Below, one piece after another: positions 6,124-8,052 of a stretch of 64,000 nucleotides of DNA. This stretch comes from Methanohalophilus levihalophilus (GTDB lineage Archaea; Halobacteriota; Methanosarcinia; Methanosarcinales; Methanosarcinaceae). The notes under the pieces are model-generated. The model had not been told where the DNA came from, searched no databases, and saw nothing but the letters and a program-made list of their open reading frames with translations. The first letter of the stretch is position 1. Each line of letters opens with the position of its first letter. Position numbers and translations under genes: made by a program. Location of the stretch: NCBI RefSeq assembly GCF_017874375.1, contig NZ_JAGGLK010000002.1:372001-436000 (forward strand), read 5' to 3'.

Positions 6124-6549
6124 TTAGTTTTGAGGCATGGGGTTTTCAAAAAGTGGATTGCCTTCTTCGGTAGGTGGCGCAAGCCAGTCAATTACTTCTT
6201 CAAGCTTTGCTTTTGAATCATCGATAACGCGAACATGAATTGTTCCCAGCACTCCCGCATCTGCCGGGAAGCTGGCTTTTCCTGCATAAGCTGCCTGCTT
6301 GTTCAACCTGAATGTGAATGAAGTCTTATTATCCTCAAGGTTTGCTGACATTGGAATTCTGGCACTGTCAAGAATTTTCTCTTTGCGCAGCATTTTGTGT
6401 AATTTGAGCAGGGAATCAAGCTTTCCTTCTCCCCTGATATTGTCGTCCAGAATTTCCAGATCTATTGTCAGGACATTTCCAATGGCTTTCTTTACCTTTT
6501 CCATATCTTCTGTTGGAAAAAGCTCAGCCCATACTTCAACGGTTACCAT
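6124..6549 (-). CDS. UPF0201 family RNA-binding-like protein
   Basis: A 141-residue archaeal protein of family UPF0201, with a fold related to ribosomal protein L5-like RNA-binding domains. The N-terminus MVTVEVWAELFPTEDMEKV and the stretch TSFTFRLNKQAAYAGKASF are typical. It overlaps the end of the UPF0200 gene by 14 bases, the gene order commonly seen for these two families in methanogens. Function unknown; an RNA role is inferred from the fold only. Confidence 0.8.
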   Translation of the reverse strand: MVTVEVWAELFPTEDMEKVKKAIGNVLTIDLEILDDNIRGEGKLDSLLKLHKMLRKEKILDSARIPMSANLEDNKTSFTFRLNKQAAYAGKASFPADAGVLGTIHVRVIDDSKAKLEEVIDWLAPPTEEGNPLFENPMPQN

Positions 6550-7090
6550 TCAGGCTCTCCAGGGTAGTTCTGATCTTGTCCCTCAAATCAGAAAGGGTGG
6601 AAGTATTATCAATTGTGATGTCTGCAGCTTCAATGGCTTCAGGCAGTCCCCATTTCAGTTCCCTCTCGTCCCTGCGCTTCAGGTCTTCAGGACTATTCAT
6701 ATCATCATCGCTGCGTTTCCTTTGACGTACACGCTCAAAACGCATTTCCAGAGGCGTATTGAGGAATATGAGGGAGAATTCGTCACCAAATTCTTCTTTG
6801 AATAACTTCACTTCGGCAATTCCCCTGACTCCGTCAACCACTACGACTCCATCACCGGCTTGTCTAATTTTAGGGATGCAACGAATTGCCACTGCGTTCA
6901 TACCTTCTTTGGCGCGAAGATCATTTGCCACGGCACCGGTGTTTGCATCGGTTGGCTCAAGGCCCCGGCGTTTGACTTCTTCCCGGATTACATCTCCCAT
7001 GTTGATGACATCGATTCCCATTTCACGTACTACTTTTGATGCTTCGGATTTACCGGAAGCCGGCATGCCGACAAATGCTATTATTTTCAT
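6536..7090 (-). CDS. UPF0200 P-loop kinase-like protein (dephospho-CoA kinase-like)
   Basis: A 184-residue nucleotide kinase-like protein. Walker A is GMPASGKS at residues 8-15, and a DGVRG motif fits the substrate-binding region of dephospho-CoA kinase-like enzymes. The start is ATG 7090 (MKIIAFVGMP); an upstream in-frame extension to 7138 would overlap the preceding gene and add an unusual leader. The family is UPF0200; the substrate is not established. It lies 40 bases after the amber-containing gene and overlaps the next gene, so the cluster is likely an operon. Confidence 0.8.
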   Translation of the reverse strand: MKIIAFVGMPASGKSEASKVVREMGIDVINMGDVIREEVKRRGLEPTDANTGAVANDLRAKEGMNAVAIRCIPKIRQAGDGVVVVDGVRGIAEVKLFKEEFGDEFSLIFLNTPLEMRFERVRQRKRSDDDMNSPEDLKRRDERELKWGLPEAIEAADITIDNTSTLSDLRDKIRTTLESLNGNR

Positions 7091-7130: not shown

Positions 7131-7433
7131 TTACTCATTCAGGGCTTCAGAAGCCATTTTCAGAAGTTCTGAAAGAATTTCTTTTGCTTCTTCCACATCA
7201 TCCACTCTTCTGGCAATTACCTATCCGCTTTTGAAAAACTTCATTTCTACGTTTTTATGGGTAATCATCATCATGTCCAGCATTTTTGAATATGATGTGA
7301 CCAATTCTTCCCTGTTTTTCAGTTTATCATAAAGTACGGAATAATCAGGTTTCTCGTCAAGATAAGCAATTACCCTGAATTTATTGGGATCTGAAGGGCA
7401 GGGCAGGATTTTTTCTATCTTGCTGATTTCCAT
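7131..7433 (-). CDS. Conserved hypothetical protein with an in-frame TAG, probable pyrrolysine codon
   Basis: Read through one amber codon this is a 100-codon gene. Residues 1-70 start MEISKIEKILPCPSDPNKFR and end at KSG; the TAG is at 7221-7223; the same frame continues with VIARRVDDVEEAKEILSELL and stops at TAA 7131-7133. The part after the TAG is amphipathic and charged, like real protein, and resembles the DDEEDA-helix ending of small archaeal proteins that share this N-terminus, as I recall them. Nothing in the window uses TAG as its stop. I infer pyrrolysine insertion at residue 71. Alternatives are a recent nonsense mutation or programmed two-product decoding. It heads the UPF0200-UPF0201 cluster. 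Confidence 0.7.
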
Positions 7434-7632
7434 TTTAAACCCTCAAAAATCGTTCCATATTCGATTTTCAGTTTTGATTTCAAGTTTATGTAGATAATAC
7501 ATACAGCTTTTTATCTTTTTATATTTCGGCATTTTCTACTTTTACATTCAGGTTTTAAGGGAGACCCGCAGAATTGAAATGTGAAGATGGACAAACCTTA
7601 TCAAATAAAGCGCAAACTAAAGGCAGCCAAAT

Positions 7633-8052
7633 ATGAGAAAAATACGAGCTCACCACTTGCTTTGCATGCAGGGTTTCCACGGACACGGCTATAGTCCGAC
7701 TTTTATTGAAAGGATGAAGACCATTCTTGCAATAATGAAATTCAAACCGGATGAAGAGATAGAGCTTGTAGCTTGCTGTGATGATATATGCACCTGTTGT
7801 CCTCACAACGTTGATAGTATCTGCCAGAAAACCGGGGATAATGGTGTGCAAATCCGGGATACGGACTTATTAATCCTAAAAAAGCTTGGATTTGAAGAGG
7901 GATATAGCGGAACTTACAATCATCTGGTCGATTATATGAAAAATCAGCTTAGCAGTGATGATATTTTTGAAATATGCGGAGGATGTTCCTGGAAAAGTAA
8001 GTGCCTATGGTATCTGGAAAATCTGGGCTTAAAGGGGCTTAAAGATACCTGA
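7633..8052 (+). CDS. DUF1284 cysteine-rich protein
   Basis: A 139-residue protein of family DUF1284. The start MRKIRAHHLLCMQGFHGHGY is diagnostic for the family. Nine or more cysteines fall in groups (CCDDICTCCPHN, SICQK, CGGCSWKSKC), suggesting one or two iron-sulfur clusters, though none has been shown here. It is followed 24 bases later by the tRNA-dihydrouridine synthase gene, so the two may be co-transcribed. Function unknown. Confidence 0.8.
   Translation: MRKIRAHHLLCMQGFHGHGYSPTFIERMKTILAIMKFKPDEEIELVACCDDICTCCPHNVDSICQKTGDNGVQIRDTDLLILKKLGFEEGYSGTYNHLVDYMKNQLSSDDIFEICGGCSWKSKCLWYLENLGLKGLKDT

Follow-up and report, generated by a model that had tools for sequence, protein, structure and literature searches.

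Does an amber codon inside a small archaeal gene end the protein, or is it read as pyrrolysine (Pyl)? The question was raised by a minus-strand frame in the window, a 64,000-nucleotide stretch of the genome (G000) of the halophilic methanogen Methanohalophilus levihalophilus. Upon translation, the frame at 7131-7433 (-) gave methionine and 69 further residues, TAG, 29 residues and TAA. The layout of the original prediction, with TAG at 7221-7223 after 70 sense codons and then 29 codons to the TAA at 7131-7133, was thus exact. The features of the locus, with the evidence for each, are:

7131-7433 (-): complete gene for a 100-residue protein of the TATA-box-binding protein (TBP) half-domain type, one in-frame TAG (translation, homologues, predicted fold)
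7224-7433 (-): codons 1-70, 5' of the TAG (translation, predicted fold, best match of the HMM for the family's N-part, E 3.7e-19)
7221-7223 (-): codon 71, in-frame TAG, putatively pyrrolysine (translation, homologue alignment)
7134-7220 (-): codons 72-100, 3' of the TAG, predicted to form the final beta strand (71-77) and a C-terminal helix (80-99), conserved among homologues (homologues, predicted fold, HMM)
7131-7133 (-): true terminator TAA (translation)
7440-7444 (-): GAGGG, resembling a ribosome-binding site, 6 nt 5' of the ATG (direct sequence reading)
6536-7090 (-): adjoining gene for an AAA_17-type nucleotide kinase, given as context and outside the claimed function (domain match; order kept in the sister species)

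Stop usage was counted in a 395-kb sample, consisting of the window and 331 kb of other stretches (19% of the genome). TAA and TGA together made up ~3.6% of its triplets, at which frequency an open run of 29 codons occurs by chance in about one case in three. The length of the extension was therefore dropped as evidence, and the case depends on homology. A separate gene for the tail was ruled out, as GTA directly follows the TAG, no start codon is present there, and the homologues are single chains.

Homology on both sides of the TAG

Profile HMMs of the N-part and of the tail were built without the two TAG-bearing sequences and searched against the window. Each half of the gene independently came out on top of its search. 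The best match of the tail HMM was exactly 7134-7220 (-) at E 0.0038, a modest value of its own owing to the shortness of the tail, followed by a next match at E 2.3 (1,863 stop-to-stop pieces in the window). Alignment of the homologues, as suggested in the original prediction, showed that they run past residue 70 and retain the conserved tail. About 25 TAG-free homologues from Methanolobus, Methanomethylovorans, ANME-2 and Methanoperedens relatives have the tail in common and are uninterrupted at this column, where they carry Q, K, R or N. Their codons at the site are CAG, AAG, AAA, AGG and AAT, mostly CAG or AAG/AAA, and TAG was found in the sister species only; CAG and AAG are each one base away from TAG.

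The sister genome (Methanohalophilus sp. DJKA121_NP-J24_bin.30, G037) has TAG at the identical codon and the same gene order beside the kinase. Amino acid identity between the two species was 49/70 residues 5' of the TAG and 17/23 directly 3' of it, as against 11/23 and 12/23 when the tail is read in either of the other frames, both of which contain stops. For the part 5' of the TAG, pS was 0.69 and pN 0.14; for the 23 codons 3' of it, pS was 0.53 and pN 0.18, and the synonymous excess in the tail gave p 0.003 in a Fisher test on rounded counts. This pattern of substitutions indicates purifying selection on both sides of the TAG between the two Methanohalophilus species. The shared TAG also bears on a sequencing or assembly error, which has in its favour that a single codon is concerned and nothing further. 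It is refuted by the same codon in G037, which was assembled separately and differs by ~25% at the DNA level, and its probability is negligible.

G037 additionally contains a second, TAG-free copy of the gene with AAA (Lys) at the site, and the M. levihalophilus genome has the TAG-bearing copy only. Conservation of the TAG was considered as proof of a Pyl-specific role and rejected: the encoded residue is the same in both species at ~71% of the codons (66/93), so that retention of any single codon is nothing unusual.

Distribution in the genus

Two genomes of the genus carry the TAG, and the TAG-bearing small gene is missing from the other six Methanohalophilus genomes. The locus was inspected in four of these six; no remnant of the gene was found there, and dusB directly adjoins the kinase gene. 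In G000 and G037, the TAG gene and a divergent DUF1284 gene (together 7131-8052 of the window) lie side by side between the kinase gene and dusB, and in the four other genomes inspected both are missing from this interval.

Absence from the six genomes, together with the default role of UAG as a stop, speaks for a reading of the TAG as a true terminator, with the gene either decaying or shortened, or encoding a functional 70-residue protein, and with the tail as a remnant. This is highly improbable in view of a TAG that is common to two species at near-saturated synonymous divergence, and of a tail that shows neither frameshift nor second stop and is under purifying selection. Furthermore, the cut would land inside the predicted fold, and internal TAGs occur in other conserved genes of the genome (both described below).

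Pyrrolysine machinery

The M. levihalophilus genome (2.12 Mb, 98.8% complete) was searched for pylTSBCD, the first check named in the original prediction, and the complete set was found. Matches to pylS, pylB, pylC and pylD each exceeded the NCBIfam equivalog cut-offs, and a tRNA-Pyl with the anticodon CTA adjoins these four genes, ~57 kb from the TAG gene. Two mtmB genes with the classic in-frame TAG are also present. In Methanohalophilus portucalensis, which uses methanol and methylamines as its sole growth substrates, Pyl has been identified by mass spectrometry at the UAG of MttB (PMC4928046).

A third MtmB homologue, at L131:4379-5854 (-) (G000:C1:629393-630742), has no TAG and carries Met instead of pyrrolysine. 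Its motif at the catalytic position is MALMGPG vs MAVOGPE, so that this member of the MtmB family is free of Pyl.

The pylB gene itself terminates at TAG in G000, in G037 and in G020, a further Methanosarcinaceae genome, at L049:1124-2299 (-), L050:8312-9364 (+) and L105:3489-4601 (-), and the TAG is followed by an open extension of 39-42 codons that overlaps pylC in G000. Where UAG is read as Pyl, this codon could extend PylB; a TAG at the end of pylB has been described in relatives (PMC2933860).

TAG usage across the genome

Of the 60 non-overlapping window ORFs with >=80 aa, none has TAG as its terminator. In the 395-kb sample, termination at TAG was found for 11/367 ORFs of >=100 aa, with TAG accounting for ~17% of all stop triplets regardless of frame. 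At least four of these 11 ORFs are internal to larger conserved genes (three genes by Pfam): two lie in a histidine kinase gene with three TAGs, one in the gene of a dCache histidine kinase and one in that of a TPD-domain protein. A fifth is pylB. True TAG stops may be present in some of the 11, e.g. in the ORF of a CxxCxxCC protein, where the extension is 6 codons long, so UAG may still terminate translation in places. These counts suggest that TAG is effectively a sense codon in this genome and is hardly used as a stop.

The three-TAG gene encodes a PAS-GAF-GAF-HisKA-HATPase kinase (L077:352-3087 (-), corresponding to G000:C1 about 120352-123087). Its second GAF copy, compared by eye, has Q and H opposite the TAGs of the first copy and so provides a control, within the gene, for the sense reading of TAG. 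In the TPD-domain protein (L082:190-999 (-)) the TAG falls within the Pfam domain, and in the dCache histidine kinase (L085:9209-11083 (-)) within the sensor domain; both are likely to be further Pyl proteins.

The original prediction also held that decoding could depend on the growth substrate and give two products. UAG would then be read in part, yielding proteins of 70 and 100 residues in a ratio set by the supply of Pyl and hence by growth on methylamines. The codon is in principle accessible to the release factor and tRNA-Pyl alike, and in relatives TAG seemingly still stops: several Methanolobus homologues of the small TBP-like protein terminate at TAG, as do 8/60 ORFs in samples of Methanolobus-like genomes. 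In M. levihalophilus, however, TAG terminators are nearly absent, as expected under efficient reading of UAG, and a 70-residue form would, according to the model described below, lose its final strand together with the C-terminal helix. Moreover, the restriction of M. portucalensis to methanol and methylamines implies that Pyl should usually be on hand (PMC4928046). The proposal of two products thus found no support and is considered improbable.

Predicted fold

The structure of the 100-residue product was predicted with AlphaFold2 from a 20-sequence alignment, with Lys substituted for Pyl (pLDDT 90, pTM 0.79). Codons 1-70 are predicted to form strands at 3-12, 15-25, 45-49, 54-59 and 62-66 and a helix at 31-38; from the TAG on, a strand at 71-77, which residue 71 opens, is followed by a helix at 80-99. 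The tail had originally been likened to the conserved C-terminal helix of small archaeal proteins. A cut at residue 70 would, on the model, leave an incomplete sheet with neither the last strand nor the C-terminal helix.

The model was compared with the PDB using Foldseek. The top matches were TATA-binding proteins, over one repeat, with a probability of 1.00 and a TM of about 0.62-0.65, and with E-values that are weak despite the high probability (0.009-0.2, best 0.009). A sequence search of the PDB gave RecA concatemers and myosin as top matches, which were rejected as repeated sub-significant stretches or chance, leaving TBP as the sole sensible match. The Pfam family of TBP (PF00352) matched the TAG-bearing protein below the cut-off (14.8 vs 22.9 bits), the weak match of the G037 protein extends across the TAG, and a related HTH/Fe-S protein from a Methanosarcina-like genome (G079) scored above the cut-off with 27.4 bits. 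Profile comparison with TBP by hhalign was weak (probability 8.5%, E 0.004); in this weak alignment, residue 71 stands opposite the Lys of the S-G-K motif of TBP. In yeast TBP, this lysine presumably contacts the DNA backbone.

A general TATA-box-binding factor would have two repeats; the product has one, in 100 residues, and the genuine TBP of the genome is encoded separately and intact (G000:C3:157300-157824). No MtmB, MtbB or MttB domain was detected in the TAG-bearing protein by Pfam/NCBIfam, which bears out the description of the carrier as a small, non-methyltransferase protein. It is proposed to represent one half of the TBP fold on its own, kin to the middle domain of proteins from the same family of archaea that combine HTH, TBP-like and Fe-S parts.

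Such larger proteins were observed at L028, L029 and L030 (268-295 residues) and carry, in addition to the TBP-like domain, an ArsR-type HTH and an Fe-S cluster motif (PF04060). They often occur as tandem copies in Methanosarcina-like genomes and are possible redox-sensing regulators.

Proposed reading of the gene

Taken from the sequence comparisons, the gene in all likelihood encodes one 100-residue protein, in which the internal UAG would be decoded by Pyl-tRNA (CUA anticodon) from the genome's own pylTSBCD system. Pyl at residue 71, the core of the original prediction, is supported by the pyl genes, the shared TAG, selection, the homologues and the scarcity of TAG stops. A single base change in CAG (Gln) or AAG (Lys), at a site tolerant of Gln/Lys, would most likely have produced codon 71, and TAG would persist in the gene since it is effectively a sense codon, and rarely a stop, in this organism. 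Fixation was thus probably by near-neutral drift from CAG/AAG to TAG. We infer that the protein is made, with Pyl in vivo, and that it is dimeric and DNA-binding or regulatory; the half-TBP protein would presumably pair as a dimer.

A more specific role is conceivable, in which Pyl replaces the SGK lysine in a TBP-like regulator whose synthesis and DNA contact would both depend on Pyl, making it a sensor of Pyl or methylamine status. This is regarded as very unlikely. Use of Pyl outside the methylamine enzymes by the organism is, by comparison of the genes described above, very likely.

Standard annotation would truncate the protein at residue 70 and drop the last strand and the helix. The scarce TAG stops, the multi-TAG histidine kinase and the present gene together argue for TAG as a sense codon in this Methanohalophilus-type genome, whose genes should accordingly be re-called with TAG as Pyl. 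With this gene, a conserved and apparently non-enzymatic carrier would join the short list of pyrrolysine proteins, and its compact size is suited to asking whether Pyl outside the methyltransferases is functional or merely tolerated.

Comparison with known systems

The protein resembles TBP (PF00352) in its predicted fold and in a motif SG-[K/O]-V that aligns with the SGK of both TBP repeats, and differs from it in its single repeat, where TBP has two, in its low sequence identity and in its score below the Pfam cut-off. With MtmB, MtbB and MttB it shares a UAG-encoded Pyl. Unlike these enzymes, it has no methyltransferase domain and shows no sign of a catalytic Pyl, and its homologues tolerate Gln, Lys, Arg or Asn at the site. 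Kivenson et al. (Science, 2025) reportedly described a 'Pyl code' in some archaea, in which all TAG codons stand for pyrrolysine, with proteomic proof. Such a code, with TAG as a genome-wide sense codon, would predict the present case.

For Thg1 (tRNA-His guanylyltransferase) of Methanosarcina acetivorans, incorporation of Pyl via UAG has been reported (Heinemann et al. 2009, PNAS; PMC2933860, PMC3639795). The two cases agree in an in-frame UAG in a non-methyltransferase gene that is missing from most homologues, which for Thg1 was ascribed to neutral evolution; they differ in the protein, in the TAG being common to two species here, and in a family with Q/K/R/N at the site. In 'Ca. Methanomethylophilus alvus', 16 Pyl proteins beyond the methyltransferases were predicted and 1.6% of stops are TAG (PMC4153887). 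That organism belongs to another archaeal order, and the passages of that account consulted name no TBP-like protein; very low TAG stop usage combined with several non-methyltransferase TAG genes is common to both. By analogy, the near-neutral origin suggested here for codon 71 would match the argument made for both Thg1 and 'Ca. M. alvus'.
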